From contig CALEMW010000219.1 of assembly GCA_937910695.1 (NCBI GenBank), positions 78,276 through 142,275 on the forward strand: a DNA stretch of 64,000 bases, written 5' to 3'. The position numbers and the translations under genes are program-made. The first letter of the stretch is position 1, and each line of letters opens with the position of its first letter. Of this stretch, positions 3,590-60,955 are shown piece by piece. This stretch comes from an uncultured bacterium (GTDB lineage Bacteria > Krumholzibacteriota > Krumholzibacteriia > LZORAL124-64-63). The notes beneath the pieces were generated by a model. The model did no database searches. It was given only the letters and a program-made list of their open reading frames with translations, and was not told where the DNA came from.

Positions 3590-5266
<1,677 letters not shown>

Positions 5267-5560
5267 CTAAAGGATGGCGAGGATGTCGCCCTCGCGAAGG
5301 ATCAGGTAGTCGTCACCCGAGACGCTCACCTCGGTGCCCGAGTACTTGCCGTAGAGCACGATGTCGCCCTTCTTCACCTCAGGGGCGATCCGCGTGCCGT
5401 CTTCGGCCGTGCGGCCGGGGCCCACGGCGACGACCTTGGCTTGCTGGGGCTTTTCCTTGGCGGTGTCGGGAATAATGATGCCGCCCTTCATCGTTTCGGC
5501 CTCCATGGGCGCAACGATGACACGATCGGCCAAAGGCTTGATCTTGATAGTCATCAGCAT
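5267..5560 (-). CDS. groES: 10 kDa co-chaperonin GroES
   Basis: [44 protein letters not shown] is GroES signature. Confidence 0.99.
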
Positions 5561-5606
5561 CTCCTCTCTCGTCTTGATGAAGTCCCGTAGGACCTGAAAA
5601 AAGGGA

Positions 5607-5633
5607 TTGGCACTCTCCCTCTTCGATTGCTAA
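5607..5633. promoter_or_regulatory. CIRCE element (HrcA operator) upstream of groES
   Basis: TTGGCACTC-N9-GATTGCTAA versus CIRCE consensus TTAGCACTC-N9-GAGTGCTAA: one mismatch per arm, correct 9-nt spacer, directly upstream of groES-groEL. Confidence 0.9.
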
Positions 5634-5687
5634 TTCGTTGGTATGATAGTCAGAGCTACATCTGCCGCAAGCAAAATTCTTCGCTCC

Positions 5688-5721
5688 TGACAAAACGGGA
5701 AAATCATATGCCATTTTGTCA
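5688..5721. promoter_or_regulatory. 8-bp inverted repeat (possible operator) in the AT-rich groES/cupredoxin intergenic region
   Basis: TGACAAAA (5688-5695) and TTTTGTCA (5714-5721), exact inverted repeat with 18-nt spacer. Confidence 0.4.
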
Positions 5722-5824
5722 TGATTGCCGTATTGCAGATTGCTTTTATCTTAATTATTCTCAGCTTGAGTCTGCGCCTATGCCGGCGTGGACGCCACGG
5801 ATCTGCTCAATGCCGAGGTACTCC

Positions 5825-6211
5825 ATGCGAATGACGATCGTACTCTCAATTCTCCTCGTCGTTGGCGCTCAGGCCGCCAATCACGACATCTTGGTCCAGG
5901 GACTCAGCTTCATCCCCGACGACCTGACCATCGAGATGGGCGACTCGGTGACCTGGACCCACGACGCCACCTCCGCCTTCCACACCATCACCAATGGAAC
6001 GGGCACTTCGGATCCCGAGATCGGCACGTTGTTCGACGAGTCCTTCAGTGGCTCGGGACAGACGTTCGTCCATGTCTTCGCCGATCCAGGCGACGTGCCG
6101 TACTTCTGTCGCCCTCATCTCGGTCTGGGCATGACGGGCATCATCCGCGTCACGGCCAACGTGGGTGAAGAATCCGGTACCTGGAGCGACATCAAAGGCC
6201 TCTGGCGTTGA
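5825..6211 (+). CDS. Secreted cupredoxin/plastocyanin-like protein with C-terminal W-S-x-I-K-x-L-W-R tag
   Basis: Signal peptide MRMTIVLSILLVVGAQA; FIPDDLTIEMGDSVTWTHDATSAFHTITNG...PGDVPYFCRPHLGLGMTGIIRV has cupredoxin His/Cys/His/Met ligand pattern; GAGG RBS before ATG 5825. Confidence 0.85.
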   Translation: MRMTIVLSILLVVGAQAANHDILVQGLSFIPDDLTIEMGDSVTWTHDATSAFHTITNGTGTSDPEIGTLFDESFSGSGQTFVHVFADPGDVPYFCRPHLGLGMTGIIRVTANVGEESGTWSDIKGLWR

Positions 6212-6284
6212 TCGATCAGGCTTCCTCCTTGCGTCCTCTGTCCATGCGTGTACCCTTGCTGATGGACGCCAACAGGAGAAAGTC

Positions 6285-8831
6285 ATGGACCGATCGTTGC
6301 CGCTGCCTCTGCACCCAGAACTGAAGGATCGTTTGAGCGACGGTCCGCCACCGCCCTTGTCTGCCCTGATCGACCCCGATCGGGGTCCGTCGCTTTGTTA
6401 TGCTCTTGCAGACCAGCTTCGTGCCGCGAACAAGACCTCTCCGGTGTCCGGAGCCGTTCTTTTCGCCTTCGCCCGTTGGCTCGACGCCTTGATCCTCGTG
6501 ACGGAAGCCCTCCTCGACGCCGGCCAGAAGCGGCACCTCGCCGACAGCCTCGCCGACGATCTCGGCCCAGAGGAGTATGCCCGCCTCAGGGACCTCGTCG
6601 CCGCATCCGTGCCTGGCTTCCTCCCATCACTCCGCGCCCTCGGTTCCGCACCGTCGACTTTCGCCGAGGCCGATTCGGAAGCTGTCCCAAGCGGATCCGA
6701 CGGCGCGGAGCTCTTCCCGCTGACGGCCCTGCTGCTGACGATGCTCAATCCGGCAGCTGCTGCACCTGCGGCCTGGCTCGGACTCGACCGCCTCGCCGCC
6801 AACCCCGACGCCGGCCGGGTCTTCACGTCCTTGAAGCGTGTCTTGTCTTCCGTTTCCGCCCCAGACGGCGGGGGTTCCCTGTTCGAGCTGTTGGAGCTTC
6901 CGGTCCGCCACTCCCCCGACCGCCTCGACGAACAGCTGCTGATCGTCGCCGACGCTTGGCGACCCTGGCTGGGGGATGCCGCCGACCACTGTGCACGGGC
7001 CGCCGGCGTGCTGCGCGAGGAGTCGCGGCCCCGCTTCGACGGCCCGGGCGACATTCCCGTCTTCCAACCATCCGCAGAGACAGTCAGCACAGAGGCCACG
7101 ACGTCGGATAAGCCGCACCCCGAACCCGATATCGAACGCTTCAGTGATGACCGGGACTGGATGCCGCGCCTGATCCTCCTGGCCAAGAACACCCATGTCT
7201 GGCTCCACCAACTGACGCAGCGTCACGGACGCGACATCACACGGCTCGATCAAGTGCCCGACGAAGAATTGGACCTCATGGCCGCCCGCGGCATCACGGG
7301 TCTCTGGCTCATCGGTCTCTGGCAGCGCAGCGCTGCGTCGCGAGAGATCAAGCGTCGCTCCGGGAATCCGGAAGCCCTGTCGTCGGCCTACGCCGTCGAT
7401 GACTACCGTATCGCCGACGATCTGGGCGGCGACGCCGCCCTCGACGAGCTGCGGGAACGTGCTCTGGCAAGGGGCATCCGCATGTGCGGCGACATGGTCC
7501 CCAACCACACGGGTGTCGACGGCCGCTGGGTCCTCGAACGCCCCGAATTGTTCCTCTCCCTCGACCACAGCCCCTACCCCGGCTACACCTTCGACGGACC
7601 CGACCTCTCACCCGATTCGAATGTGTCGATCCGTCTCGAAGATCACTACTGGGAGCGCAGCGACGCCGCCGTCGTCTTCGAACGCGAAAACCGAGACACC
7701 GGCGAGATACGCTATCTCTACCACGGCAACGACGGCACCTCCATGCCCTGGAACGACACCGCCCAGCTCGACTTTCTCAACCCGGAAACCCGCGAAGCCG
7801 TCATCGAAACCATCATCGCGGTGGCCCGCCGTTTCCCGGTCATTCGCTTCGACGCCGCCATGGTCCTCGCCCGACGACACCTGAGACGACTCTGGCACCC
7901 CGCCCCCGGCCACGACAGCGACATCCCGACCCGCGCCTCGCGGGCGCTCTCACCCGAAGATTTCGACCGGGCCATGCCCGCCGAATTCTGGCGAGAGGTC
8001 GTCGACCGGGTGGCCGTCGAGGCCCCCGACACGCTCCTGCTCGCCGAGGCCTTCTGGTTGATGGAGGGCTACTTCGTGCGCAACCTGGGCATGCACCGCG
8101 TCTACAACAGCGCGTTCATGCACATGCTTCGTGATCAGGACAATGCGAAGTTCCGTCAGGGGCTCAAAAACGTCCTGGCTCACGACCCCCGCGTCCTGCA
8201 GCGGTTCGTGAACTTCATGAGCAACCCTGACGAGGAGACGGCCGTCGAACAGTTCGGGACGGGTGACAAGTACTTCGGCGTCGCGACGCTGCTGGCCACT
8301 CTGCCCGGACTACCCCTGATCGGGCACGGGCAGCTCGAGGGCTATGCCGAGAAATACGGCATGGAGTACGCCCGCGCCTACCTTGACGAACAACCCGACA
8401 CCGGATTCATGGAGCACCACGACCGGATGATCAGTCCGCTCTTCCACCGTCGGCAGATCTTCGCCGGAGCCGATTCATTCCGGCTCTTCGACGTCCGTGA
8501 CGACAACGGGCATCTGGTGGAGGATATGATCGCCTACGCCAACCGGAGCGGGGACGAAGCCGGGCTGGTGATCGTCAACAACTGCCACCAGACGCGCCGG
8601 GGACGACTGCACCGCGGCTGGTCGCCGGACGGAACCCCGAGCGACAGCCTGAGCGATGTCCTCGGCCTGGACACCGCCGCCGGCGGCCTGATCAGATTGC
8701 GCGACCCCCGTACCGAGCATGAGCTCACTCTCGACGCCCACGACCTGCACGACGCCGGCTTCGAGATCGAACTGCCTCCTTACGGCGCCGCCGTTTTCCT
8801 CGAGTGGTACACGGAGGCCCGGAACGCTTGA
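6285..8831 (+). CDS. GH13 alpha-amylase-family protein with N-terminal helical extension
   Basis: GITGLWLIGLW, CGDMVPNHTG, VIRFDAAMVLARRH, LLAEAFWLMEGYF GH13-like motifs; AGGAGA RBS before ATG 6285. Confidence 0.85.
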   Translation: MDRSLPLPLHPELKDRLSDGPPPPLSALIDPDRGPSLCYALADQLRAANKTSPVSGAVLFAFARWLDALILVTEALLDAGQKRHLADSLADDLGPEEYARLRDLVAASVPGFLPSLRALGSAPSTFAEADSEAVPSGSDGAELFPLTALLLTMLNPAAAAPAAWLGLDRLAANPDAGRVFTSLKRVLSSVSAPDGGGSLFELLELPVRHSPDRLDEQLLIVADAWRPWLGDAADHCARAAGVLREESRPRFDGPGDIPVFQPSAETVSTEATTSDKPHPEPDIERFSDDRDWMPRLILLAKNTHVWLHQLTQRHGRDITRLDQVPDEELDLMAARGITGLWLIGLWQRSAASREIKRRSGNPEALSSAYAVDDYRIADDLGGDAALDELRERALARGIRMCGDMVPNHTGVDGRWVLERPELFLSLDHSPYPGYTFDGPDLSPDSNVSIRLEDHYWERSDAAVVFERENRDTGEIRYLYHGNDGTSMPWNDTAQLDFLNPETREAVIETIIAVARRFPVIRFDAAMVLARRHLRRLWHPAPGHDSDIPTRASRALSPEDFDRAMPAEFWREVVDRVAVEAPDTLLLAEAFWLMEGYFVRNLGMHRVYNSAFMHMLRDQDNAKFRQGLKNVLAHDPRVLQRFVNFMSNPDEETAVEQFGTGDKYFGVATLLATLPGLPLIGHGQLEGYAEKYGMEYARAYLDEQPDTGFMEHHDRMISPLFHRRQIFAGADSFRLFDVRDDNGHLVEDMIAYANRSGDEAGLVIVNNCHQTRRGRLHRGWSPDGTPSDSLSDVLGLDTAAGGLIRLRDPRTEHELTLDAHDLHDAGFEIELPPYGAAVFLEWYTEARNA

Positions 8832-21795: not shown

Positions 21796-22557
21796 ATGAA
21801 GTTGATCATGACTTTGATTGCTCTGTTGGCGCTGGCTTCTCCGGTGCTGGGCTTGAACTTCGATCAGAACATCACACCTGATGTGATTTTCGGCTCGGGC
21901 AACCTCAACGGTTCGTTCACCACCGATGTCGCCGGCGGAATCGAGCTCGGTCTGCGCGGCAAGCTTCGCTTCGATGCCGCCAACCAGCCACAGAATATCT
22001 TCAACAGCAACGGCGACGGTTCCTACTCGTTCATCGCCGGCGCCGCCCCGTCTGGATTTTCCTGGATGCCCGGCTCCCCCACAACACCCGTCTGGAACTT
22101 CGAGTTCTCCGTGAACACCGACAACACCGGCACCAGCGGCCTGAAGCTCGACGCCCTGACCTACGAACTGGGCCTCGACTTCGATCCCTCCCCGGCCGGC
22201 ACCAGCTTCCTGGTCTTCGATCCGATCTCCGCTGGCGTATCTGCCGCTTTCTACGACCACTCCCTCGGCACCAACGCCACGACCTCGGCCACGGACCTGG
22301 TTGCCGGCGACGCCGTAACCTACGCGTCCTATCTGGCGACACAAAACGTCGCCCAGAACTCCTGGAGCTACGAATTCTTCAATGACGCTCCTTTCAACAC
22401 CTTCGATCCCGCCCTGGACGGCGTCTACGAAATCTACCTCCGCGCTTATGACGGCAGCGGTGCGTTGGTGGCGCAGACTTCGATCTCGATCGTGATCGGC
22501 AACGCCGTGTCAAACGAGGACTCCTCCTGGAGCAGCATGAAGACGCTGTTCCGTTAG
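21796..22557 (+). CDS. Secreted PEP-CTERM-like architecture protein ending in W-S-S-M-K-T-L-F-R tag
   Basis: Signal peptide MKLIMTLIALLALASPVLG; middle resembles PEP-CTERM-type exported proteins (VAQNSWSYEFFND); C-terminus NEDSSWSSMKTLFR instead of PEP-CTERM. Confidence 0.7.
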   Translation: MKLIMTLIALLALASPVLGLNFDQNITPDVIFGSGNLNGSFTTDVAGGIELGLRGKLRFDAANQPQNIFNSNGDGSYSFIAGAAPSGFSWMPGSPTTPVWNFEFSVNTDNTGTSGLKLDALTYELGLDFDPSPAGTSFLVFDPISAGVSAAFYDHSLGTNATTSATDLVAGDAVTYASYLATQNVAQNSWSYEFFNDAPFNTFDPALDGVYEIYLRAYDGSGALVAQTSISIVIGNAVSNEDSSWSSMKTLFR

Positions 22558-39175: not shown

Positions 39176-40663
39176 TCAGTCCATGTACTTCCGCGTGTAC
39201 GCCGGTTCCGTCAGGTCCCGCCGCAGGTCGTCGCTCCGGAACGGAGAACGATCCTTGGTGCGGGACTGGAGACCCGGGAAGGTGCGGACGTCCGCCATGG
39301 GTTCGTCAGCTTGTCCACGGGCCGTCAAAAAATCAGAGGCCGGCAGGTTTTCGGTGCATTCCCGGAGGATCGGGACTCCTTCGGGCTCAGGCCGCAGGTG
39401 GTCTTCAGGATCCGTCTCGACCATGGTGAAACGCATCGATGTCGGTGTGGCCGCAGGAGCTTCGAATTCCTCGATCACCGCAGGGCCCCCCGCGGCCGCC
39501 GCCATGATCTTCAATTCTGGCGTAGGTGCCGGAGGTGCATCCTCGCTGCCGGGTCCATCCGGCTGGATGGCCTCAAGGGAGTCTTCCCAACCTTGATGTT
39601 CGGGGAGTGCCACATGATCGGACATGATCACAGGGGCCGTCGCGAAATCCTCGGCCGGTGTGTCGTCCACCTTGGCGGTGGCCATCCGCACGGGCTTGCG
39701 GGCCGGGGTCTTGTCGAAGCCGGTAGCGATGACCGTGACCTGCAGCGTATCACCGAGCTCCTCGTCGATCCCGTAGCCGAAGATGATGTGGGCCTGGTCG
39801 CCGGCGGCCTCTTGGACGATGGACATGACCGTGTTGGTCTCCATCAGCCCCACATCGCCGCCGGTGAGGTTCACCAGCACGCCCTGGGCACCGAAAATGT
39901 CCACGTTCTCAAGCAACGGCGAGCTGATGGCGGCCCTGGCAGCCGATTCCGCCCGGTCGTCGCCGGTGGCCTTGCCGGTGCCCATGAGCGCCACACCCAT
40001 ACCCGCCATCACCGAACGGACGTCGGCGAAGTCGAGGTTGACCATGTGGGGCTTCATGATGATGTCGTGGATACCGCGCGTGGCCTCGTACAGAACGTTG
40101 TCGGCGAAGCAGAAGGCCTCGCTCATGGATGTGTTCTTGGGCACGACTTCGAGCAACCGCTCGTTGGGAATCACGATCAGGGTATCGACGGCTTCGCGGA
40201 GTTCGGCCAGGCCTGCCTCGGCCTGGGCCTGGCGAACCTTGCCTTCGAACCGGAACGGCTTGGTGACGATTCCGACAGTCAAGGCACCCATCTCCCGGGC
40301 CAACCTTGCCACCACGGGTGCCGCACCGGTGCCCGTGCCGCCTCCCATGCCTGCAGTCACGAACACCATATCGCTGTCTTGGATGATATCGCGGATCACC
40401 TGTTCGTCTTCGAGGATCGAGGCGCGCCCGACGCAAGGATCGCCCCCGGATCCCAGTCCACGTGTCACTTCGTGACCGATCTGCACGACCTGACCGGCCC
40501 GCGAAAGTCGCAGAGCCTGAAGATCAGTGTTGACGGCAAGGAAGTCGACACCGGAGAGACCGGCTTCAATCATGCGGTTGACGGCGTTTCCGCCTGCGCC
40601 GCCGACTCCGGCAACGCGAATTCTGGCCAGGCGATCAGCGGGCTCGACAAGTTCGAACACCAT
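39176..40663 (-). CDS. ftsZ: Cell division protein FtsZ
   Basis: RIRVAGVGGAGGNAVNRMIEAGLSGVDFLAVNTD; VFVTAGMGGGTGTGAAPVVA tubulin signature; long disordered linker and C-terminal peptide. Confidence 0.99.
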   Translation of the reverse strand: MVFELVEPADRLARIRVAGVGGAGGNAVNRMIEAGLSGVDFLAVNTDLQALRLSRAGQVVQIGHEVTRGLGSGGDPCVGRASILEDEQVIRDIIQDSDMVFVTAGMGGGTGTGAAPVVARLAREMGALTVGIVTKPFRFEGKVRQAQAEAGLAELREAVDTLIVIPNERLLEVVPKNTSMSEAFCFADNVLYEATRGIHDIIMKPHMVNLDFADVRSVMAGMGVALMGTGKATGDDRAESAARAAISSPLLENVDIFGAQGVLVNLTGGDVGLMETNTVMSIVQEAAGDQAHIIFGYGIDEELGDTLQVTVIATGFDKTPARKPVRMATAKVDDTPAEDFATAPVIMSDHVALPEHQGWEDSLEAIQPDGPGSEDAPPAPTPELKIMAAAAGGPAVIEEFEAPAATPTSMRFTMVETDPEDHLRPEPEGVPILRECTENLPASDFLTARGQADEPMADVRTFPGLQSRTKDRSPFRSDDLRRDLTEPAYTRKYMD

Positions 40664-40787
40664 GGACAGCCCCTCTCGTCCTTGATCGGGTAATGCTTCC
40701 AAATGACGGCGGGAATCCTTCCCTGTGTTTGTGATTAACACATCCGGACCCGGTCGCCAAGTGGTTTTTGCACTGAGATGAGGCAGT

Positions 40788-42008
40788 TCAGCGCCGGGGC
40801 CAGATTTTTTTCAGAATCCCCTTCAAACCGCCTCCACCGCCCGAATGTCTCGGGTCTTCATCATGGCCGGAATCACCGACCGCCCAGGCTGCCAATCCCA
40901 GCGCCGTGCCCCACTGCCCCGGGGGCAGTCGGTCGGTGCCGGCGATATTGGCCGGTAGATAGCGCAACGTCACCGGCAACTGGAACACCTGTTCGGCGAG
41001 GTCGTCGGTGCCGGCACAGCGGGAGCCGCCGCCGGTGATCACCAGCCCTCCCCGCAGATCGCCCAGTCCGAGAGCCTGGGCCATGTCCTTTTTGACCAGA
41101 GCCAGGATCTCTTCGAGCCGTGGTTCGAGGACGGTAGCGATCAGACCGGGAGACTCGGCCGGGGCATCCTCTTCGAACAGAACATCCGGATCGATCGCAT
41201 CGGTCAAGCTGCGCAGAACGACACCGCGGGAGCGCTTGACTGCTTCGGCCTCCGGCATCGACACCCGCAACCCGTGAGCCAGGTCGGCCGTGAGGTGTTC
41301 CCCGCCCCAGGGCACCTGGCCGCAGCCGGCGATTTCGCCGTTGTGGAACAGCGCCCACTGGGTGACCGAGCCGCCGATGTCCACCAGCGCCGCACCGGCG
41401 TCTTTAGCCGCATCGTCGAGCAGGACTGCGGAAGACGCCAGGACGTCGACACACCAACCCACGGCCTCGCGGTTCAGCTTGCCGATGGCCGATTCGATGT
41501 TCTGGAGCACGGTGCTCGACCCGGTGACGATATGAACGTCGGCCTCGAGATGGCTGCCGGCTCGACCGACGGGATCGACGACGCCGGCGATGCCGTCGAC
41601 GGTGAAGCCCACGGGATTCGCCACGAGAATGGCATGGTCGAAGGGAATCCCCATACCGTGGGCCTTGTCGATGACGAGATCGACGTCCTGCGGCGTGATG
41701 GGGCGGCGTTCAGGGCCGATCTGCTGCTGGCACCTCGCCCAGACCGAACGCAGATGGGAACCGCTCACGCTGAAGAAGAAGCCGGAGATATCTACGTCGG
41801 CAGCTGATTCGGCCGCCGTCACTGCTCGTTCGAGAGCCCGGCTCGCCGAGGTGAGATCCACGAAATCGCCGTCGCGGAAGCCGACGGACTCGGCGCTTCC
41901 CGCCCCGACCACCCGCATCCCCTCATGACTCACGTTGACCACCAGAACCCGGAACGCAGTGGTTCCGAAATCGCAGGCGACGATCAGCTGTCCTTGTTCC
42001 ATCCCCAC
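40788..42008 (-). CDS. ftsA: Cell division protein FtsA
   Basis: VACDFGTTAFRVLVV; LVDIGGSVTQWALFHNGEI; ITGGGSRCAGTDDLAEQVF; C-terminal amphipathic GILKKIWPRR. Confidence 0.96.
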   Translation of the reverse strand: MGMEQGQLIVACDFGTTAFRVLVVNVSHEGMRVVGAGSAESVGFRDGDFVDLTSASRALERAVTAAESAADVDISGFFFSVSGSHLRSVWARCQQQIGPERRPITPQDVDLVIDKAHGMGIPFDHAILVANPVGFTVDGIAGVVDPVGRAGSHLEADVHIVTGSSTVLQNIESAIGKLNREAVGWCVDVLASSAVLLDDAAKDAGAALVDIGGSVTQWALFHNGEIAGCGQVPWGGEHLTADLAHGLRVSMPEAEAVKRSRGVVLRSLTDAIDPDVLFEEDAPAESPGLIATVLEPRLEEILALVKKDMAQALGLGDLRGGLVITGGGSRCAGTDDLAEQVFQLPVTLRYLPANIAGTDRLPPGQWGTALGLAAWAVGDSGHDEDPRHSGGGGGLKGILKKIWPRR

Positions 42009-42019
42009 CGATCCTCCGT

Positions 42020-42811
42020 CTACTCCGCGTGCTGTGCGGTTTCTAGTTCCTTGACGTAGACCTGTCCGTCGAAACGCAGATCCACCGATGAAGCCGGCGG
42101 CAGATCATCGGCCACGGCCAAATACCGTCGGAGGCGCAACATGAACGACTCGCGACCGACGAGCAGGCGGCCCGTCTCTGCTCCCAGATCCAGGATCAGG
42201 CCCGTACCGTTCTCGGTGATGCCGACGACGTTCCGTCGGGCATCCAGACCACTCTCGGCGACAGCGTTGATCAAAATCAACAGAGACTCCAGATCTTCGT
42301 CCGTAGGGGTCTGCTGCCCATGGCGGAAGATCGGCAGTTCAGGTGCCTCCACATGGGCCGGCAGCTGCAGAACACGATGGTCCGCCAGCAGTGCGTGATC
42401 AGGATCGCCTCCGGCGGCCGCCATCAGCAAACGTGGTCGCCACTCTTGAAGACGCACTGCAAGAGTGCCCGGCGGGCGGCGCGTGATCTCGACGGAGCGG
42501 ACCCAAGGCAGTTGTTCCAGGTCCTCGCGCAGAGAATCGCGACTGCAGGTCCAGATGTTCCGCCCCAACCGTTGCAGCAGTACGCCCTCAACTTCGCTCA
42601 CCGTGGAGTAGCGGTAACGTCCGGTTTCGAGGCGAGTCACCGCGAAGGCCGGCGAGGTCCTCATCCAGTTCACCAGCACCACGGCACCCCCCGCGACCAG
42701 GACTGCGGCCACGCCCAGGGCGATCTTGATCCAGAGGCGGCCGGAGGTCCGGGTGCGGGCCATGCCCCCGTTCCCACCTCTGCGCCCGAGACTCAGGGCA
42801 CGCCGGCTCAC
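42020..42811 (-). CDS. ftsQ: Cell division protein FtsQ/DivIB (POTRA)
   Basis: Single TM then POTRA-like FAVTRLETGRYRYSTVSEVEGVLLQRLGRNIWTCSRDSLREDLEQLPWVRSVEITRRPPGTLAVRLQEWRP. Confidence 0.9.
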   Translation of the reverse strand: MSRRALSLGRRGGNGGMARTRTSGRLWIKIALGVAAVLVAGGAVVLVNWMRTSPAFAVTRLETGRYRYSTVSEVEGVLLQRLGRNIWTCSRDSLREDLEQLPWVRSVEITRRPPGTLAVRLQEWRPRLLMAAAGGDPDHALLADHRVLQLPAHVEAPELPIFRHGQQTPTDEDLESLLILINAVAESGLDARRNVVGITENGTGLILDLGAETGRLLVGRESFMLRLRRYLAVADDLPPASSVDLRFDGQVYVKELETAQHAE

Positions 42812-44181
42812 GAGGCCTCTTTCCCATCGAGCCGTTTGCAGATTGTCGCGACAGACCTGCCGATATCTCCGGCTCCGAGGGTCAACAGGAGATCGCCGCT
42901 TCGGACTTGGGCGTCCAGCCAGCCTGGCACCTCGTCATGACCGGCGAGCAGGGTCGGTGTCGCACCCTTGCGGACGAGAGCCGCAGCAATGGCCTCGCTG
43001 TCACCGCCGGAGCATGGATCTTCGCCCGCCGCATAGACAGGCAACAGGCCGATGACGTCCGCGGCCATCAGCACATCGGCGAACTCGGCGCGGAAACGTG
43101 CGGTGCGTGTATGGCGGTGAGGTTGGAACAGCACGACGACGCGACGGCCGTCCGCTGTGGCCAGGGCGAGCGTCGCCGCCACTTCCGTGGGATGATGGCC
43201 GTAGTCGTCCACAACGAGGATGTTGTCGCCGTGAATGCCGTGATCCTCATAACGCCGGCCGACGCCAGTGAATGAGGCCAGAGCCGGAGCCGCCACTCCG
43301 AACGACACGCCCAGCTCCATACCCACAGCCACCGCTGCCAAAGCGTTGGTCAGGTTGTGCAGACCACCGGTGCGCAGGCTCAGTTCGCCAAGTTCGCGAC
43401 CATAGGCCAGGACACGGGCACGGCGGCCCACATCGTCGAGAGGTTCTCCGCGCACGTCGGCGTCGGCACCCAGACCGTAGGTCACGACTTTGCGGTCGAG
43501 GCCGGGAATCAGTGCCCGCACCTCGGGGTCGTCGGCACAGAGGATGCAAGCGCCGTAGAAGGGCACTTTTTCGAGGAAGATCCGGAAGGCGTCGCGGACA
43601 TCGTCGAGTTCGGCGTAATAGTCCACGTGCTCGTGGTCCATGTTCGTCACCACGGCGATGGTCGGCACGAGTTGGAGGAAAGAGCCGTCGCTTTCGTCAG
43701 CCTCGGCGACCATATACTCCCCCCGGCCCAGAATGGCGTTGGCACCCGTGGCCAGGGCGCGGCCTCCGACCACGACGGTGGGATCCAGGCCGCCCGCCGC
43801 GAGGACCACGGCGGTCAGCGATGTCGTCGTGGTCTTGCCGTGAGACCCGGCAACGGCGATGCCGTACTTCAGGCGCATGAGCTCGGCCAGCATCTCGGCC
43901 CGTCGGATGACGGGGATGCCCGCCCGTCGCGCCGCTTGGATTTCGGGATTGGCCGCAGTCACGGCCGAAGAGTGGACCACGACGTCCGCTCCGCCGATCT
44001 GCGAGGAGTCGTGGCCGATGAAGATGTCGGCGCCGAAACGTTCGAGACGGTCGGTGGCCTCGCTCGAACGCAGATCGCTGCCGCTCACCTTGAAGCCCAG
44101 GTTCAGCAGGATCTCGGCGATGCCGCTCATGCCGATGCCGCCGATGGCCACCAGGTGGATGTGTCGCGTGTTGCGGAACAT
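42808..44181 (-). CDS. murC: UDP-N-acetylmuramate--L-alanine ligase
   Basis: HIHLVAIGGIGMSGIAEILLNLGFKVSGSDL; AVAGSHGKTTTTSL; ORF track extends upstream but real start is ATG 44181. Confidence 0.97.
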   Translation of the reverse strand: MFRNTRHIHLVAIGGIGMSGIAEILLNLGFKVSGSDLRSSEATDRLERFGADIFIGHDSSQIGGADVVVHSSAVTAANPEIQAARRAGIPVIRRAEMLAELMRLKYGIAVAGSHGKTTTTSLTAVVLAAGGLDPTVVVGGRALATGANAILGRGEYMVAEADESDGSFLQLVPTIAVVTNMDHEHVDYYAELDDVRDAFRIFLEKVPFYGACILCADDPEVRALIPGLDRKVVTYGLGADADVRGEPLDDVGRRARVLAYGRELGELSLRTGGLHNLTNALAAVAVGMELGVSFGVAAPALASFTGVGRRYEDHGIHGDNILVVDDYGHHPTEVAATLALATADGRRVVVLFQPHRHTRTARFRAEFADVLMAADVIGLLPVYAAGEDPCSGGDSEAIAAALVRKGATPTLLAGHDEVPGWLDAQVRSGDLLLTLGAGDIGRSVATICKRLDGKEAS

Positions 44182-44183
44182 GC

Positions 44184-45317
44184 TCAGCTCCGATTCTCGT
44201 CGGCGGGCAAGGCGCCGCCCAGTCTCAGGATATCCACAGCGATCTCCGCGGCGGCATCGGGCCGAGCACGGCGACGGCTGGCGAGGGCCATTTCGGCCAG
44301 TCTCGAAGGCTCCGTGCAGAGGTGATCGACCAGCGCGATCAGCGCTTCGCCCGTACACATGTCGTCGGGCAGGACCTCGGCGGCGCCCGCTTCGGCCACG
44401 CCCCTGGCGTTGCGGGCCTGGTGGTCGTCGGTGGCGTGCGGGAAGGGCACCAGCACCGCAGGACGTCCCGAAGCCGCCAGTTCGGCGAGGGTCATGGCGC
44501 CGGCGCGGGAGATGACGAGATCCGCCCAGCGCAGGGCCGCAGCCATATCGTCGATGTACGGTTCGACCCTCAGCAGGCGCTCGCTGCCGCGCCAGGCGTC
44601 GTAGCCCTCGGCATAGGCCAGCGACACGCGGTTGTAATCCGTCGGCCCCGTTTGGAACCACAGCTCGAGATCATGACGACCGATCAACGGTGCCGCAGCG
44701 GCGATCAGTGCCTCATTGAGACTCCGAGCCCCCCTGCTGCCGCCGAAAGCAAGCAGCCGCAGGGGCCGACGTCCGTCCCAATGGTCATGATCATCTCGGC
44801 TCAAAGCCTCGCTGACGTCGCGTCGCACGGGATTACCCGTGACCACGGTGGGACGGCCGGAAAAACACGGAGCGGCTTCGGCAAAGCCCAGATAGATTCG
44901 GCGTGCCCAGCGGGCCGCCCTTTTGTTCGTGCTGCCGGGAACTGAGTTCTGTTCTTGCAGAACGATGCATTTCCCAAGGAGCCGCGACGCCACCATCACC
45001 GGAACGCTCACATAACCACCGGTACCCATGACCACGGCCGGGCGGAACTTCAACAGGATCACGAGCGACTTCAACACGCCGAACACCAGGTTCAGCATGA
45101 ACAGTCCACGTGCACCCCAACCCAAGCCCCGCATTCCCGATGCAGGTACGGTGACGAACGGCCAGCCGGCCTTGGGCACCAGGGTCGATTCGAGCCCGCG
45201 CGATGTCCCGACGAACAGGACTTCGCTCGCGGGATCGAGGGTCATCAATGCTTCCGCAACGGCGAGGCCCGGATAGACATGGCCACCCGTCCCGCCACCG
45301 GTGATGAGGATCCTCAT
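44184..45317 (-). CDS. murG: MurG glycosyltransferase (lipid II synthesis)
   Basis: MRILITGGGTGGHVYPGLAVAEAL; GGSRGARSLNEAL; LVISRAGAMTLAELAASGRPAVLVPFPHATDDHQARNA. Confidence 0.97.
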   Translation of the reverse strand: MRILITGGGTGGHVYPGLAVAEALMTLDPASEVLFVGTSRGLESTLVPKAGWPFVTVPASGMRGLGWGARGLFMLNLVFGVLKSLVILLKFRPAVVMGTGGYVSVPVMVASRLLGKCIVLQEQNSVPGSTNKRAARWARRIYLGFAEAAPCFSGRPTVVTGNPVRRDVSEALSRDDHDHWDGRRPLRLLAFGGSRGARSLNEALIAAAAPLIGRHDLELWFQTGPTDYNRVSLAYAEGYDAWRGSERLLRVEPYIDDMAAALRWADLVISRAGAMTLAELAASGRPAVLVPFPHATDDHQARNARGVAEAGAAEVLPDDMCTGEALIALVDHLCTEPSRLAEMALASRRRARPDAAAEIAVDILRLGGALPADENRS

Positions 45318-46462
45318 GGACGGCGCATCCTCTGGAGCCGCGCCTGGATGTCCCGCCGCTGCATGTCGATGTTCAGCAGGATGCCCACCGCGGCCAGGTT
45401 CGTGATCAATGCGGAGCCGCCGTAGCTCACGAAGGGCAACGGCAGGCCCATGACTGGTAGGAGGCTGGTGACCATGCCCAGGTTGATCAGAGCGTAGATC
45501 ACGATCATGGACGTCAGGCCGGCCGCCAGCAGGCTGCCGAAGCCGTCCCCCGCCTCGCGGGCGATCTTAAAGCCCCGCGTCGCGAAGATCACGTACATAA
45601 ATACCAGGATGAGGCTGCCGATCAAGCCTGCTTCTTCCCCGAGTACGGCGAAGATGAAGTCGGTATGGGCGTCGGGCAGGAACGCCAGGCGCTGATGGCT
45701 GCTGCCGAATCCCTGTCCGAACACGCCGCCCGCCCCGATGCCGATGATGCCCTGCCAGACCTGATAGGTCAGGTCGTCGCCCTGCAGCCCGCTCCACCAG
45801 ATCACCAAGCGATGATGCACCCTGGGAATGAAGAAGAAGCAGAGGATTGCGACCGATACTCCACCGCCGGCGATCACAGCGAGCCAACGGCCCGGAATGC
45901 CGGACAGGGTCAGGATCAGAATCGTCAGCAGCGAAATGACGATGGCGTTGCCGAAGTTGGGCTGCAGCACCAGAGCGAGGACGGTGACGGCCGGGACGGC
46001 GAGGACACGGGCCAGGCGGCGGGGATCCCGTGCGAGTCGGTCCCACCCGCCGGCCAGTTCATGGGCAAGAAAAACGATCAACGCGATCTTGGCGATCTCC
46101 ACCGGCTGTACGAAAAGGAACCAGCGGCCCGCACCGTAGCGGGCGCCGACCAGCCCGGTGGCGGCGAGGACCACCGTCATGACCACCAGACCCGCCCCGA
46201 CGATCAGCAGAGCCAGCCGCAACCAGCCGTTGCGCAGCTTGTTGTAATCGAAGCGCGCAGCGCCGATCAAGGCCAACGCGCCCAACAGAAGCCGCACCAC
46301 ATGCTTGAACAGATAGGTCGTCGAAGTGCGGGCCTCGCTGCGGAAAGAGCCGGCGTCGTAGACCATGACCACGCCGACGATGCAGAGGACTCCGACCGAG
46401 AGCAGGAGGCCGCGGTCGTACTCGCGGATGCGGTGCAATTGTTCGCGGAGTCTCCGGGTCAT
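45314..46462 (-). CDS. ftsW: FtsW (SEDS peptidoglycan polymerase)
   Basis: Polytopic; PVEIAKIALIVFLAHELA; LAFLPDAHTDFIFAVLGEEAGLIG; SLLPVMGLPLPFVSYGGSALI. Confidence 0.96.
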   Translation of the reverse strand: MTRRLREQLHRIREYDRGLLLSVGVLCIVGVVMVYDAGSFRSEARTSTTYLFKHVVRLLLGALALIGAARFDYNKLRNGWLRLALLIVGAGLVVMTVVLAATGLVGARYGAGRWFLFVQPVEIAKIALIVFLAHELAGGWDRLARDPRRLARVLAVPAVTVLALVLQPNFGNAIVISLLTILILTLSGIPGRWLAVIAGGGVSVAILCFFFIPRVHHRLVIWWSGLQGDDLTYQVWQGIIGIGAGGVFGQGFGSSHQRLAFLPDAHTDFIFAVLGEEAGLIGSLILVFMYVIFATRGFKIAREAGDGFGSLLAAGLTSMIVIYALINLGMVTSLLPVMGLPLPFVSYGGSALITNLAAVGILLNIDMQRRDIQARLQRMRRP

Positions 46463-47832
46463 GGACGGGTCCCTTCCCGGGTCGCGGCCCAGGCCCGCGC
46501 CGCGCCGGCGAAGGCTTCACCCCGATGGTGATAGTCACGGAACATGTCGAAGCTGGCGCAGGCGGGGCTGAGCAGCACCGTTCCCCGGCCGTCTGCCAGG
46601 GCCGCAGCCGTGTGCACGGCCTCATCCATGCTCGAGGCGCGGACGATGGCCACAGCCCCGGCAAGAGCCTCGGCCATCGCGTCGGCTTCGGCGCCGATCA
46701 GAACGGCGTGGGACACCGATCCCATCGCGTCGCGCAAGGGGGCGTAGTTCTCTCCCTTGCCGCTGCCGCCGAGGATCACCACCACGTCGGCATCGTATCC
46801 CGCGAGTCCTGCGCACACAGCGTGGACGTTGGTGGCCTTGGAGTCGTCGACGAAACGGACGCCAGCCGACTCGATCACCAATTCCTGCCGGTGCGGCAGG
46901 CCGCGGAACGAGCGCAGACCTGTGGCGAGGACCTGAGCATCCACGTCGTAGACTTCCACCAAGGCGACCGCCGCCATGGCATTCAGAAGATTGGGGCCGC
47001 CCTTAAGACCGAGGTCGGCGATCGGGAGGATGGGTTCCTCGTCACCGCCCCGGAGCCTGACGAGCCAGCCGTCTTGAAGAAAGACCGAGGCGCCGTCCCG
47101 GCGCGCGCCAAAAAGGGTGCGCCGTGCGGCGGACCAGGACAGCGCCTCGATACAATCGGTCCAGGTGACGAAGAGTCCCTCGTCGCCCAAGGCCTTGATC
47201 AGGTTGTGCTTCGCTTCGAAATAGGCATCAAGATCGGGATAACGGTCGAGGTGATCGGGAGCCAGGTTCAGAACGGCTCCGGCCCGCGGTCGGAATGTGT
47301 CGATGGTTTCGAGCTGGAAGCTGCTCGCCTCGATCACCGCGACGGCATCGGGCCCCAGGGCATCGGCGACGTCGCTGAGGGGCCGCCCCAGGTTGCCCAG
47401 AGCGTAGGCGTCGTAACCGGCCTCGCGCAGCAGATGCGCCACAAGTTCCGTGGTCGTGGTCTTGCCGTTGGTGCCGGTCACAGCCAGGGCTTCCCCGGCG
47501 AAAACCCGCCAGCCCAGTTCCAGCTCGCCGATGATCGTTGTCCCCGACGGCAGGCTCTTCAGAGCTGGATGATCACCGGGGACGCCGGGGCTCAACACCA
47601 CACCGTCCAGGGCGGGCAGATCGAGCCACCAGTCGGCACCGGTCCGGATCTCGTGGTAGGCAGATGCCGCGGCGTCCATGAGTCCGCCGTGTTCCCACTT
47701 GGCTTCCAGTGCGGTGCGCTCGGCGTCGTCGCCACCCACGACACGGGCGCCGCACCGTCGCAGCAGGGCCCCGGCCGCACAGCCACTGCGGGCGAGTCCG
47801 ATGATCAGCCAAGTGCCTTGCAGGTTCCCCAC
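46459..47832 (-). CDS. murD: UDP-N-acetylmuramoylalanine--D-glutamate ligase
   Basis: LIIGLARSGCAAGALL; AVTGTNGKTTTTELVAHLL; FVDDSKATNVHAV. Confidence 0.97.
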   Translation of the reverse strand: MGNLQGTWLIIGLARSGCAAGALLRRCGARVVGGDDAERTALEAKWEHGGLMDAAASAYHEIRTGADWWLDLPALDGVVLSPGVPGDHPALKSLPSGTTIIGELELGWRVFAGEALAVTGTNGKTTTTELVAHLLREAGYDAYALGNLGRPLSDVADALGPDAVAVIEASSFQLETIDTFRPRAGAVLNLAPDHLDRYPDLDAYFEAKHNLIKALGDEGLFVTWTDCIEALSWSAARRTLFGARRDGASVFLQDGWLVRLRGGDEEPILPIADLGLKGGPNLLNAMAAVALVEVYDVDAQVLATGLRSFRGLPHRQELVIESAGVRFVDDSKATNVHAVCAGLAGYDADVVVILGGSGKGENYAPLRDAMGSVSHAVLIGAEADAMAEALAGAVAIVRASSMDEAVHTAAALADGRGTVLLSPACASFDMFRDYHHRGEAFAGAARAWAATREGTRP

Positions 47833-47841
47833 TGCGGCTCC

Positions 47842-48930
47842 CTATTGCAGCTTGATGGAGCTCATGCTGAGCAGCAGGAGCAGAATGCCCACGATCCAGA
47901 AGCGCACCACAACCTGAGTCTCGGACCAGCCGTTCAATTCGAAGTGATGATGCAGGGGCGCCATGCGGAAGATCCTCTTGCCGCCGCGCCATCGGAACGA
48001 GCCCACTTGGAGCATGACGCTCAGGGCCTCGGCCACGAACATGCCGCCGATGATCACCAGCAGCAGCTCGCGCTTGATCAGGATGGCCACGGTGCCCAAA
48101 GCGCCCCCCAAGGCAAGGCTGCCGGTGTCGCCCATGAAGACCCGTGCCGGATGGGCGTTGAACCAGAGGAAACCGAGCGCAGCGCCCACCACGGCGGCGC
48201 AGTATACGGTCAGTTCTCCGGTGCCCGGCAGGTAGACGATGTTCAGATAGTCCGCAAAAATGACGTTGCCCGTGAGGTACGCCAGTGCCGCGAAACCCAG
48301 AAATGCGAAAGCGCTGAGCCCGATGGCCAACCCGTCCAGGCCGTCGGTCAGGTTCACGGCGTTGCTCGTACCGGTCACCACCACCACCACCAACGGCAGG
48401 TAGAACCAGCCCAGATCGAGGAATGCGTTTTTGAGGAAGGGCAGCGCCAGGGTCGTGCGGGCCGTCGGCTCGCCGCCCAGCTCCCGGATCACAGCGTAAA
48501 GGACAAGGCTGAAACCCACTTGCCCGATCAGCTTCACGCGGCCGATCATGCCCTTGGGCCGTTTCTTGACCACTTTCAACCAGTCGTCGATGAAGCCGAT
48601 GGCACCCATCCAGACCGTGGCCAGCAGACAGAGTTGCACGTAGCGATTGGTCAGATCCGCCCACAGCAGCGTGGGGAGAACCACGGCGGTCAGCACCAGC
48701 ACGCCGCCCATGGTCGGAGTGCCCGCCTTGGCGGCGTGGTGGGATGGGCCGTCGGCGCGGATCGTCTCGCCGAGCTGGAGGGTCTGAAGACGACGGATCA
48801 CCCAGTCACCGAACACGAAGCTGATCAACAGAGCCGTCACCGCGGCGTAGGCGGCGCGGAATGTGATGTACTGAAAGACATTCAGCACGGACCAATGCTC
48901 GTGCAGCGGATAAAGGAGGTGGTAGAACAT
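47842..48930 (-). CDS. mraY: Phospho-N-acetylmuramoyl-pentapeptide transferase
   Basis: DGPSHHAAKAGTPTMGGVLVL; FIDDWLKV; NLTDGLDGLAIG; FMGDTGSLALGG; HHHFELNGWSETQVVVRFWI. Confidence 0.98.
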   Translation of the reverse strand: MFYHLLYPLHEHWSVLNVFQYITFRAAYAAVTALLISFVFGDWVIRRLQTLQLGETIRADGPSHHAAKAGTPTMGGVLVLTAVVLPTLLWADLTNRYVQLCLLATVWMGAIGFIDDWLKVVKKRPKGMIGRVKLIGQVGFSLVLYAVIRELGGEPTARTTLALPFLKNAFLDLGWFYLPLVVVVVTGTSNAVNLTDGLDGLAIGLSAFAFLGFAALAYLTGNVIFADYLNIVYLPGTGELTVYCAAVVGAALGFLWFNAHPARVFMGDTGSLALGGALGTVAILIKRELLLVIIGGMFVAEALSVMLQVGSFRWRGGKRIFRMAPLHHHFELNGWSETQVVVRFWIVGILLLLLSMSSIKLQ

Positions 48931-48931
48931 G

Positions 48932-50419
48932 CTAGGACCTCTCGAGATGCGACATGTCGGGCTCGCGACGGGTTCGGAACAGCTCGACGACGCGCTCCAT
49001 GCCCGCCGACCGTGAGCCCTTGACCAGCACGTGGTCGCCGGCGACGAGTGTGACGATCATCATGGCCGCAGCCTCCTCCACATCGCGTGCGACGCGACCT
49101 TCGGCCCCCGCAGCTACAGCGCCCTCGGCGGTGTCTGTGGCATGGAGACCCACCGCCCACACGGCGTCGAATCCCAACTCGGCCAAGGCGGCGCCCGTGT
49201 CTCGGTGCAGCTCTGCAGCCTCGGCGCCCAGTTCTGCCATGGACCCCAATACGACCACGGTTCGACCTGTCCCGGAGAGTTCCATCAACGCTCTGCCTGC
49301 CGCCAGCACGCTGGCGGGGTTGGCATTGTATGTGTCGTCGAGGACAGTGATGCCGGCCACTGTCAGCAAGCGGCTCCGGTGGGGCGACGTGCGAAGATGA
49401 CTCAGCCAGCCCGCGATGTCCAGATCCGGACCCGCCAACGCCCTGGCGGCGATCACGGCGGCACAGAGATTGGCGGCATTGTGCCGTCCAGGCAAGGGAA
49501 GCGGAATGGCCTCGCCGTCGATCGTGAGCACTCCTGTGTCCGACGCCGCCGCTGGTGACCACGACCAGCGATGATCGCCGGCTGTTTCGCCCCAGGAGAC
49601 GACGGAGCAACGGGCGCGCCTGCGCCAGGCGTCGAACCCCGCACTGTCGGCGTTGAGTACAGCGACACCGTCTTCAGGCAGATGGTCCAACAGCTCGCCC
49701 TTGGTTCGTACGATTGTCTCCAGATCGCCGAATCCTTCGAGATGGGCCCCCGAGGCATTGGTGATCACGCCGACGCGGGGTGCGGCCAGAGCGGCCAGGT
49801 CGGCGATTTCTCCGGGCCCCGAAGCGCCCATCTCAATGACGGCCCAGCGGTGCTCCGCCCGCAGTCCGAGGAGGGTCAGCGGCACGCCGAGGGCGTTGTT
49901 GTAATTGCCGGAGGTGGCGAGGGTCGGACCGTCGGCGGTCAACAGCGCCGCAAGCAGGTCCTTGGTGGTGGTCTTGCCGTTGGTTCCCGTCACCGCGACC
50001 AGGCCCACGGTGCAGCGGCGTCGCCAACAGGCGGCCAGGACCGTCAGGGCCGCATCAGGATCGTCGGACAACAGGATCGCCGCATCGTGTCCGGGGTCTC
50101 CGGACAGCAGCGGATCGGCTCCGGCTTCGGACCAGGGGCGGGTCAGTGCAGCGGCGGCTCCCGCTCTCAGGGCTACGCCGACGTAGTTCCGGCCATCGAC
50201 GCGCTCCCCCGACAGTCCCAAAAACAGCTGTCCAGCACCGACGGCTCGAGAATCCAGGACCGCACCGTGAAACGACAGATCGCCCACAGCGTCGTGAGCC
50301 CCCTCGACTCTATGACGCAGCCAGGCTCCTCCCCTGAAGACCAGGACACTGCTCAGCAGATTTCGCGCAATAAGATCCTGTACGGCCCACTTCAGCTCAT
50401 AACGACGATCCGGGGTCAC
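48932..50419 (-). CDS. murF: UDP-N-acetylmuramoyl-tripeptide--D-Ala-D-Ala ligase
   Basis: GAVLDSRAVGAGQLFLGLSGERVDG; AVTGTNGKTTTKDLLAALL; LDDTYNANPASVLAA. GTG 50419 forms a GTGA overlap with murE. Confidence 0.96.
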   Translation of the reverse strand: MTPDRRYELKWAVQDLIARNLLSSVLVFRGGAWLRHRVEGAHDAVGDLSFHGAVLDSRAVGAGQLFLGLSGERVDGRNYVGVALRAGAAAALTRPWSEAGADPLLSGDPGHDAAILLSDDPDAALTVLAACWRRRCTVGLVAVTGTNGKTTTKDLLAALLTADGPTLATSGNYNNALGVPLTLLGLRAEHRWAVIEMGASGPGEIADLAALAAPRVGVITNASGAHLEGFGDLETIVRTKGELLDHLPEDGVAVLNADSAGFDAWRRRARCSVVSWGETAGDHRWSWSPAAASDTGVLTIDGEAIPLPLPGRHNAANLCAAVIAARALAGPDLDIAGWLSHLRTSPHRSRLLTVAGITVLDDTYNANPASVLAAGRALMELSGTGRTVVVLGSMAELGAEAAELHRDTGAALAELGFDAVWAVGLHATDTAEGAVAAGAEGRVARDVEEAAAMMIVTLVAGDHVLVKGSRSAGMERVVELFRTRREPDMSHLERS

Positions 50420-51933
50420 GATGCTCCACCTCTCGTCGCGATCCATTGGCGCACGACGGCCCGATCATCCAGATCCAAACGCCGATCTCCGACGATCTGA
50501 TAGTCCTCGTGACCCTTCCCGGCGATGACCACGACATCGCCTTCGCCCGCCCAGTCCAGGGCTTCGGTGATTGCTCGGGTGCGGTCGACCACGACACGGC
50601 ACGCGTCCCGGTCCACGCCGGCTACCTCGCGGTAACCGTCGAGGATCATGGCGCAGATGGCGTCCGGATCCTCGGTGCGCGGATTGTCGGAGGTGATCCA
50701 GGTCGCGTCGGCGCCGCGTGCGGCGACCGCACCCATTTGGGGCCGCTTGCCTGAATCCCGATCGCCCCCGCAGCCGAATACAGCGGCAAGGCGTCCGGAA
50801 CTCAGTTCGCGGCAGGATTCCAGCACGGCGTCCAAGGCGTCGGGCGTGTGGGCGTAGTCCACGACGGCCAATCCACCGCCGGGCAGTCCGAAACCTTCCA
50901 TCCGGCCCGGGACCTGGCCGGTGGCCGACAAAGCGGCGCAGATGTCGGCCACGTCGTAGCCAAGCGCCACGCCTCCAGCCACGGCCGCCGTCAGGTTCTC
51001 CACATTGAAGCGTCCGACCAACGAGCTCGTGATGCGGTGGGTGCCACCACCCGCCCCGATCGTGAGCTGTGTTCCCGTCATTTCCAGATCCGCATCGAGC
51101 AGGCGCACATCAACAACCCCGGCCGCGGTTCCCCGCCACCCCGTCGACCAGCGCACGACCCGCAGCCCCGGCGCATCCACATCGGCGAAGGCCGGATCGT
51201 CGACGTTGATCGCCAGCGCCCCCGGCGCCTTGATCCGGCCCGCTCCGCACAGCAGTTCTCTGATCCTTAATTTGGCGGCCAGGTATGCATCGAGAGTGCG
51301 GTGGTAGTCGAGGTGATCGCGGCTCAAGTTCGTCATCAAGCCGACATCAAGCTCCAGACCAGCGGTCCTGTCCTGGTCCAGGGCATGAGACGACACTTCC
51401 AGCGCCGCCGCCCCCAAACCGGCATCGCGCATTTCGGCGAGCAGACCGTAGAGACTCGGACCGTCGGGAGTCGTCAAGGGAGCTGGCACGATCGTCGTGC
51501 CCGTTTCATAGCGGATGGTTCCGAGCAGGCCGCAGCCACCCTCGAGGGCGGCGAGCATGTCCCGCAACAGGAAGGCGGTCGTCGTCTTGCCGTTGGTTCC
51601 GGTCACGCCGGCCAGACGCAGCGACGTGTCGGGGCATCCGTGCAGGAGGCGCGCCGCGAGCGCCGGCACCGGACGCGTGTCCGCAAAAGCGAGGACGGGA
51701 ACATCGAAATCCCTCGGAGCCTCACCCATGACCGCTACAGCCGCACATCCTGCCGCCTCGGCGTCGGCGAGCCAACGGTGCCCGTCGGCTGAATACCCGC
51801 GAACAGCGACATAGAGGTCACCGGGAGCGACCTCTCGAGAGTCGACGGTCACCCTGCGCACCATCGTCTCGAGGTCGCCCCCTGTTGCGTGTGCTCCAAG
51901 TTCTCCGGCCAACTGCCGTACACTCATCGCCAT
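50416..51933 (-). CDS. murE: UDP-MurNAc-L-Ala-D-Glu--diamino acid ligase (DNPR motif suggests meso-DAP)
   Basis: LAGVTGTNGKTTTAFLLRDML; TTPDGPSLYGLLAEMRDAGLGAAALEVSSHALDQ; WITSDNPRTEDP. Confidence 0.97.
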   Translation of the reverse strand: MAMSVRQLAGELGAHATGGDLETMVRRVTVDSREVAPGDLYVAVRGYSADGHRWLADAEAAGCAAVAVMGEAPRDFDVPVLAFADTRPVPALAARLLHGCPDTSLRLAGVTGTNGKTTTAFLLRDMLAALEGGCGLLGTIRYETGTTIVPAPLTTPDGPSLYGLLAEMRDAGLGAAALEVSSHALDQDRTAGLELDVGLMTNLSRDHLDYHRTLDAYLAAKLRIRELLCGAGRIKAPGALAINVDDPAFADVDAPGLRVVRWSTGWRGTAAGVVDVRLLDADLEMTGTQLTIGAGGGTHRITSSLVGRFNVENLTAAVAGGVALGYDVADICAALSATGQVPGRMEGFGLPGGGLAVVDYAHTPDALDAVLESCRELSSGRLAAVFGCGGDRDSGKRPQMGAVAARGADATWITSDNPRTEDPDAICAMILDGYREVAGVDRDACRVVVDRTRAITEALDWAGEGDVVVIAGKGHEDYQIVGDRRLDLDDRAVVRQWIATRGGAS

Positions 51934-53696: not shown

Positions 53697-54148
53697 GGCC
53701 CGTCACCACCCACTGCGGCGTGGGCCTCGCGAGCACCGACGGCGACCATGGCCCGTGCCAGGAAAGACGGGCCGTCACGTTCGGATGTCTCGTCGAGGAC
53801 CATCAGTACCGATGGGTGCGTCGGAGCGACAAGGCCGATCGTCACAGCCTTGGCGGCGATCTCGTCCCGGGACGTCTGTCGGTTCCATTCCTGTTCCAAG
53901 AGCCCCAGTCTCGCCTGCAGATAGTCCCGGTCGGCATGAAGATCGGAAATCGTGGTGCGTTCCCTGATGATGCCGTTGGACAGGGCCACCTGTCCGGTCA
54001 CGACTAACAAGGCGGCGAATCCCATCAGCCCGACCAACAACGCTCCGGTGTCGAGCATGCATCGCGAACGGGCCATGGCGCCGCCGCCTGTCCCCGTCGG
54101 AGCGGCATAGCGGAACGTATTGCGGATTCCCTGACGTCGTCGAGTCAT
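53693..54148 (-). CDS. ftsL: FtsL-like cell division protein
   Basis: Small bitopic protein (TM then RERTTISDLHADRDYLQARLGLLEQEWNRQTSRDEIAAKAVTIGLV) between ftsI and rsmH. Confidence 0.8.
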   Translation of the reverse strand: MTRRRQGIRNTFRYAAPTGTGGGAMARSRCMLDTGALLVGLMGFAALLVVTGQVALSNGIIRERTTISDLHADRDYLQARLGLLEQEWNRQTSRDEIAAKAVTIGLVAPTHPSVLMVLDETSERDGPSFLARAMVAVGAREAHAAVGGDGP

Positions 54149-55068: not shown

Positions 55069-55445
55069 GAAGCGGCTCGGCGTGCGGGCACCGAAGAAAC
55101 GAGGCTCGGCGATACATCGCCGAGCAGCAGAATGGTCTTGAGATAGGTGCTCCAGCCGGAAAGCAGAAGCTGATGACCGTATCCCCGCAGCTGATCGCTC
55201 CAGGCGATCAAGGGGGCGACGGCCCGGTAGTCGACGTGGTGCAGCTGCCGGCCGTCGAGGACGATCCTTCGTCCCCGTTGGACAAGCCTGGGCGCGATCC
55301 ATCGCTTCAGCCGCACCACCGTGTCGCGATCGAGTTCACCGAGAAGAGTGACCCGCAAGATCGACCCACGTTCCTGGACCTCAAAATCGATCCCTCCCTC
55401 GAGAAGGGTTAAACATGGCGTCCAGCGGGTCGACTCTCTCGGCAT
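55065..55445 (-). CDS. STAS-domain protein inserted between mraZ and rsmH
   Basis: RVTLLGELDRDTVVRLKRWIAPRLVQRGRRIVLDGRQLHHVDYRAVAPLIAWSDQLRGYGHQLLLSGWS: STAS fold pattern; ATGA overlap with rsmH start. Confidence 0.7.
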   Translation of the reverse strand: MPRESTRWTPCLTLLEGGIDFEVQERGSILRVTLLGELDRDTVVRLKRWIAPRLVQRGRRIVLDGRQLHHVDYRAVAPLIAWSDQLRGYGHQLLLSGWSTYLKTILLLGDVSPSLVSSVPARRAAS

Positions 55446-55530
55446 TGCGGGCTCCGTCCCTGGCTGCCGACCGTCCTTGGTCGGCGTGGCTCCGTCCTAC
55501 CTACGGCCTCGATCCGTCGAGACCCAACGT

Positions 55531-60954: not shown

Positions 60955-60955
60955 A

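Follow-up and report, generated by a model that had tools for sequence, protein, structure and literature searches.

Unrelated proteins predicted to be exported in Krumholzibacteriota and other bacterial lineages share a short C-terminal peptide, hereafter the tag. Our sequence comparisons showed that this tag is real, forms the very end of the chain, is conserved as a protein sequence and occurs on many unrelated exported bodies, and that it stands where homologues of these proteins bear a T9SS type A sorting domain (CTD). We give about even odds to the tag being a genome-wide signal that sorts Sec-exported proteins, most of them small, and that probably stands in for the T9SS CTD in shorter form.

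Two copies of the tag are present in the window, the whole 64,000-nt stretch of DNA that was analysed (Table 1). The original prediction that a cupredoxin and a second secreted protein have similar C-termini was borne out, as both ends read from the sequence as described. The two carriers share no recognised family, in line with the proposal that their folds are unrelated: Pfam Copper-bind (PF00127) matched the cupredoxin (E 5e-10), and no Pfam or NCBIfam match was obtained for the second protein. The C-terminal end of the first copy was placed correctly; however, its start was moved from 6167 to 6161 because conservation extends over about 16 residues. In the AF2 model of the cupredoxin (pLDDT 71.6), a plastocyanin-like fold was predicted, with the tag lying outside the barrel as a short helix (residues 120-126) of low confidence (pLDDT ~57). 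The model of the second protein was mostly beta and too poor for further use, and the modelling hints only weakly at a helical tag. In homologues of the second protein encoded elsewhere, the tag was kept at 63% identity (L202) and 53% identity (L217). An 813-aa protein encoded on the minus strand of the window (58531-60972) has a T9SS type A-like C-terminus (VAAGVYLLRAQLEGHVIVKPLAVVR), so the window seems to contain C-terminal signals of both kinds.

Table 1. Tagged proteins and tag copies of the window, with a T9SS-type locus on the same contig (G000 and C219 denote the genome and contig of the window in pattern-match coordinates)
Feature	Position	Strand	Description
Exported cupredoxin, 128 aa	5825..6211	+	ATG 5825, stop ends 6211; signal peptide MRMTIVLSILLVVGAQAA, plastocyanin-like domain, C-terminal tag
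Tag copy 1	6161..6211	+	VGEESGTWSDIKGLWR + stop, C-terminus of the cupredoxin, read from the sequence; pattern match at G000:C219:84457-84486
Exported all-beta protein, 253 aa	21796..22557	+	ATG 21796, stop ends 22557; family unassigned, C-terminal tag
Tag copy 2	22507..22557	+	VSNEDSSWSSMKTLFR + stop, C-terminus of the all-beta protein, read from the sequence; pattern match at G000:C219:100803-100832
Conserved T9SS-type locus (L278)	G000:C219:about 39300-56000		Upstream of the window, same contig

In the genome of the window (Krumholzibacteriota), the stop-anchored motif W-x-x-h-K-x-[LIM]-[FYW]-R gave 34-35 matches against 0-2 in the backwards control: a loose stop-anchored DNA pattern, W-x3-K-x-[hydrophobic]-[aromatic]-R, matched 35 times and its reverse twice, and a tighter stop-anchored pattern matched 34 times and its reverse once. 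When the motif was counted in any context, 34 of 38 occurrences lay directly before a stop codon (binomial p ~4e-41); this count is unbiased, whereas terminal versus internal counts in the fetched loci were biased by the fetching. Signal peptides were predicted for all 29 tagged ORFs checked in this genome, compared with 39 of 133 other ORFs (29%; Fisher p = 1.5e-13), and across Krumholzibacteriota loci for 85 of 90 tagged ORFs, compared with 161 of 515 others. These percentages are approximate since the calls came from a crude rule-based in-house script and not from SignalP, but both sets of ORFs were treated in the same way and the contrast is large. The motif is thus enriched in signal-peptide proteins, as predicted, both in its own genome and in the loci of relatives.

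The tag was found in 79 of the 80 genomes of the window's phylum, with 977 matches against eight for the control. Its number varied by family, averaging approximately 20 per genome in one family (f1) and approximately five in the others, and the sole genome without a tag was G037. Two further phyla were counted whole: all seven genomes of one were tagged (22 to 81 tags each; control, 1), as were all 20 genomes of the other (23 to 73 each; control, 2). This amounts to 2,172 matches in 107 genomes, with 11 for the control and a maximum of 81 per genome. Among the matches listed for a stricter pattern run over 84,980 species were more than 100 stretches; their distribution is a sample, and their labels were Eisenbacteria, Krumholzibacteriota, Gemmatimonadota, Latescibacterota and unnamed bacteria, with a single Fibrobacter and a single Verrucomicrobia. 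The SprA coordinates of 'Fibrobacter sp. IMS_BF' (L115 / G084) were identical to those of G004 of the window's phylum, and those of 'Gemmatimonas sp. SW.020' (L157 / G115) to those of G013 of the same phylum; the public names of these two MAGs therefore appear to be wrong. No tag was found in the viral contigs of IMG/VR under the strict pattern.

The full consensus was V-[PA]-[VTN]-E-x-x-[ST]-W-[GS]-x-[IV]-K-x-L-[YF]-R. Its core comprises W at -9, G/S at -8, I/V/L at -6, K at -5, L/M at -3, Y/F at -2 and R at -1; the search patterns themselves imposed W, K and R and, in part, the remaining core residues. Upstream, V/I/T occupied -16 and a small residue -15; E at -13 (55 of 90) and S/T at -10 (77 of 90) were conserved in loci fetched without requiring either. 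Within the tag, Arg was encoded by each of its six codons and Gly by each of its four, and the three stop codons all occurred; this free variation indicates that the peptide is under selection, rather than a repeat in the DNA. The helical hydrophobic moment of the core was 0.59, compared with 0.39 for shuffled sequences, and the hydrophobic periodicity peaked near 110 degrees, as in a helix. No hydrophobic stretch was found in the last 24 positions of the tagged proteins, the chain of which stops at the Arg.

The bodies that carry the tag fell into at least 118 sequence families among approximately 227 proteins, 82 of them singletons, and in an alignment of 150 tagged proteins the signal peptide was the only other common region. 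The carriers are therefore otherwise unrelated, in line with the original prediction, and its alternative, a homologous fold, fails. Among the bodies recognised were beta-helix repeats, lamin-tail, CHRD, PPC, redoxin/ResA and cupredoxin domains, together with the NCBI 'choice-of-anchor' domains F and X, whose members bear varying sorting signals, as the name given by NCBI states. Most of the tagged proteins are unannotated. They are also small (median, 214 aa), and ORFs ending in a T9SS tail were far longer (median, 867 aa in one sample). The tag was kept in homologues at 51-63% identity. A few tagged proteins had lipoprotein-type signal peptides (L132:519-4541, L139:1363-3499, L178:3310-4536 and L219), and Eisenbacteria OFTM309 encodes a tandem set of lipoprotein-type tagged proteins, one frame of which contains two successive tags.

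SprA was present in all 38 relatives and in 31 of 33 other tag genomes; the two in which a SprA match was absent, G113 and G117, are both draft MAGs. The 38 relatives all encoded a PorU-type C25 peptidase, along with 36 to over 113 proteins per genome with a T9SS type A sorting domain. The homologues of 20 tagged proteins continued into a CTD-like tail in place of the tag, and adjacent paralogues, one tagged and one with a CTD-type tail, were found at three loci. In L115, a tagged lamin-tail protein (6392-6985) follows a 38%-identical protein (4077-6293) with a T9SS tail that scores above the TIGR04183 cut-off. In L166, a single-domain tagged protein adjoins a protein with three copies of the domain and a CTD-type tail, and in L151 a tagged protein adjoins a longer homologue with such a tail; the tails of these two loci score as FlgD/PorU-type. 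These comparisons, and above all the neighbouring paralogues, suggest that one and the same kind of body can end in either the tag or the CTD. The tag-poor genomes, including G037 with zero tags, retain SprA, C25 and over 100 CTDs. The T9SS gene set is thus constant across tag numbers, so its co-occurrence with the tag is not specific, which leaves room for a separate receptor.

We found no description of the tag in NCBIfam, in Pfam or in the open-access journal literature that we searched, and it looks like a previously undescribed C-terminal label on exported proteins. Like the tag, the T9SS type A CTD (TIGR04183 / PF18962) is C-terminal and occurs on diverse Sec-exported proteins, many per genome; the two are also found in the same genomes and on homologous bodies. 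However, the CTD is an Ig-like beta-sandwich of 70-80 residues with GxY and basic motifs, whereas the tag has 16 residues and is predicted to be helical. A T9SS tail or FlgD domain was found in none of 150 tagged proteins by Pfam (including PF18962), and TIGR04183 was missing from the 25 NCBIfam families listed for tagged proteins. Short T9SS CTDs coexist with long ones in a single genome of Prevotella intermedia and retain motifs B, D (GxY) and E (PMC11969387), and the signal of HBP35 consists of its last 22 residues, with motifs D and E (PMC4804311). These short CTDs form two or three beta-strands within 22-55 residues, whereas the W and K of the tag follow a helical pattern. Since the tag does not have the beta-strand motifs of the shortest T9SS signals, it is not a trimmed CTD; the motifs and fold read by PorV (PMC11969387) are likewise absent from it. 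In Flavobacterium, one T9SS reads different C-terminal signals through dedicated shuttles (PMC12618676), and the type B CTD with its PorP/SprF shuttles (PMC12618676) offers a possible model for the reading of the tag. However, five motifs are conserved in type B CTDs, which often show linkage to their shuttle genes (PMC12618676), whereas tag genes have no recurrent neighbour.

In its genomic behaviour, the tag resembles the PEP-CTERM/exosortase (PMC1569441), GlyGly-CTERM/rhombosortase (PMC3237569) and MYXO-CTERM/myxosortase (PMC11980579) systems, in each of which a short C-terminal region on many unrelated signal-peptide proteins of one genome was first discovered by sequence (PMC1569441, PMC3237569, PMC11980579). 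These regions combine a motif with a transmembrane helix and a basic cluster; the tag, in contrast, has no transmembrane helix. The LPXTG-type architecture of signature motif, transmembrane helix and basic cluster was not seen in it either. The beta-signal of outer-membrane barrels is an alternating hydrophobic strand with an aromatic end, whereas the tag has a terminal Arg and helical periodicity. With no hydrophobic stretch and no Pfam T9SS or FlgD domain, the claim that the tag is not of the TM-helix, LPXTG, PEP-CTERM or FlgD/T9SS CTD type holds.

No gene recurred beside the tags, either in the neighbourhoods of lone tags or in the tagged loci. The number of C25 peptidases was rejected as a correlate, as it showed no relation to the number of tags (13 C25 with 0 tags in G037; five C25 with 35 tags in G019). 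A SprA-like barrel of approximately 1,150 aa, encoded beside Omp85, was considered as a dedicated translocon; it was dropped as a discriminating partner because it was found in 78 of 80 genomes whatever their tag number, and it is seemingly absent from at least one tag-rich genome (G074, 92%-complete). Also rejected was a clustering of tag genes with CTD genes, the density of CTDs near tags being approximately 35 per Mb (by regex), mildly over the genome average. The PorU-PorV-barrel locus upstream of the window (L278), another candidate partner, had a similar layout in tag-rich and tag-poor genomes. The co-occurring cognate enzyme that was originally expected was not found among these candidates: SprA, C25 and the SprA-like barrel are near universal and do not discriminate, and the neighbourhoods contained no recurrent gene.

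The L278 locus encodes a PorU-type C25 peptidase (~1,370 aa), a PorV-like protein (341 aa), a large CTD protein, two small proteins, an NHL protein, the SprA-like barrel (~1,150 aa) and an Omp85/POTRA protein, and its gene order was similar in most of the genomes compared. The barrel family (for example, L259:3147-6632, minus strand; approximately 1,150 aa) has no Pfam match and is present as a single copy in nearly every genome of the phylum; it looks like an uncharacterised second SprA-type protein.

The enrichment in signal-peptide proteins, the non-homologous bodies and the interchange with the CTD all argue for the original proposal that the tag is a brief C-terminal signal, not described before, for sorting, processing or anchoring. 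As a sorting signal, it would work as follows. After Sec export, the linker V-P-x-E-x-x would leave the stretch [ST]-W-[GS]-x-[IV]-K-x-L-[YF]-R exposed as a short amphipathic helix with a free carboxylate on its last Arg; an outer-membrane receptor would then read this helix and direct the protein either to the surface or into the medium. This receptor would most likely be part of the T9SS, which is encoded in every tested genome of the phylum, or a shuttle feeding it, and the tag may thus serve as a minimal substitute for the 70-80 residue CTD; we hold the assignment of the reader to the T9SS with less confidence than the sorting role itself.

The strongest competing explanation, which we regard as possible but somewhat improbable, is a sorting signal read independently of the T9SS by a dedicated outer-membrane or periplasmic receptor, such as a PDZ-like binder of free C-termini. 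The strictly terminal position with its free Arg carboxylate, the lack of likeness to any T9SS CTD in sequence or predicted structure, and a tag number that ranges from 0 to 81 while the T9SS genes stay constant are consistent with such a receptor; however, no candidate gene was found for it, the sole barrel family tested was unrelated to tag number, and the exchange with T9SS tails suggests a common destination. In its fullest form, a pathway of Krumholzibacteriota and Eisenbacteria-type lineages in which a receptor reads the 16-residue Arg-ended helix and thereby brings about the export or anchoring of as many as 80 small proteins in each cell, this explanation is equally tentative. It is unlikely that the tail is instead a direct anchor, a helix docking to the outer membrane, peptidoglycan or a surface matrix without being a transport signal. 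Its amphipathic pattern, which puts W/I/L/Y and K/R on opposite faces, and the choice-of-anchor bodies among the tagged proteins would suit an anchor, but the core and the upstream E are far more strictly conserved than generic membrane helices require, and a few tagged proteins resemble lipoproteins and would thus be anchored already. The extreme C-terminal position would also be expected of a signal by which a periplasmic tail-specific protease recognises proteins for turnover or quality control, but we consider this very improbable: its presence on dozens of structural and redox proteins that are exported would be unexpected, as would its exchange for secretion domains, and known Tsp tails are apolar and are not known to end in Arg. 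Nothing beyond the two window copies considered alone speaks for a resemblance by chance, for descent from a common ancestral domain or for a mobile DNA repeat located at the ends of genes, and these readings are refuted by the control counts, the at least 118 body families, the free synonymous codons and the conservation of the tag in homologues.

The tag can serve as an easily searched marker of surface and secreted proteins in phyla that have hardly any cultured representatives. Should it prove to be a T9SS signal, it would be shorter than any described one that we found and different in fold, and the translocon or its shuttles would recognise other structures besides the CTD beta-sandwich; otherwise, it would point to a new route of export or anchoring in diderm bacteria.

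A minority of tags deviated from the consensus in that the Arg was lost, F replaced W or up to approximately eight residues were added. Tags in which the Arg was lost, F stood for W or a few residues extended beyond the Arg were present in L041:96-824, L101:1716-2255, L121:2124-2714, L132:3858-4541, L159:4546-5676 and L224:4798-5352; such variants could reveal which residues matter.
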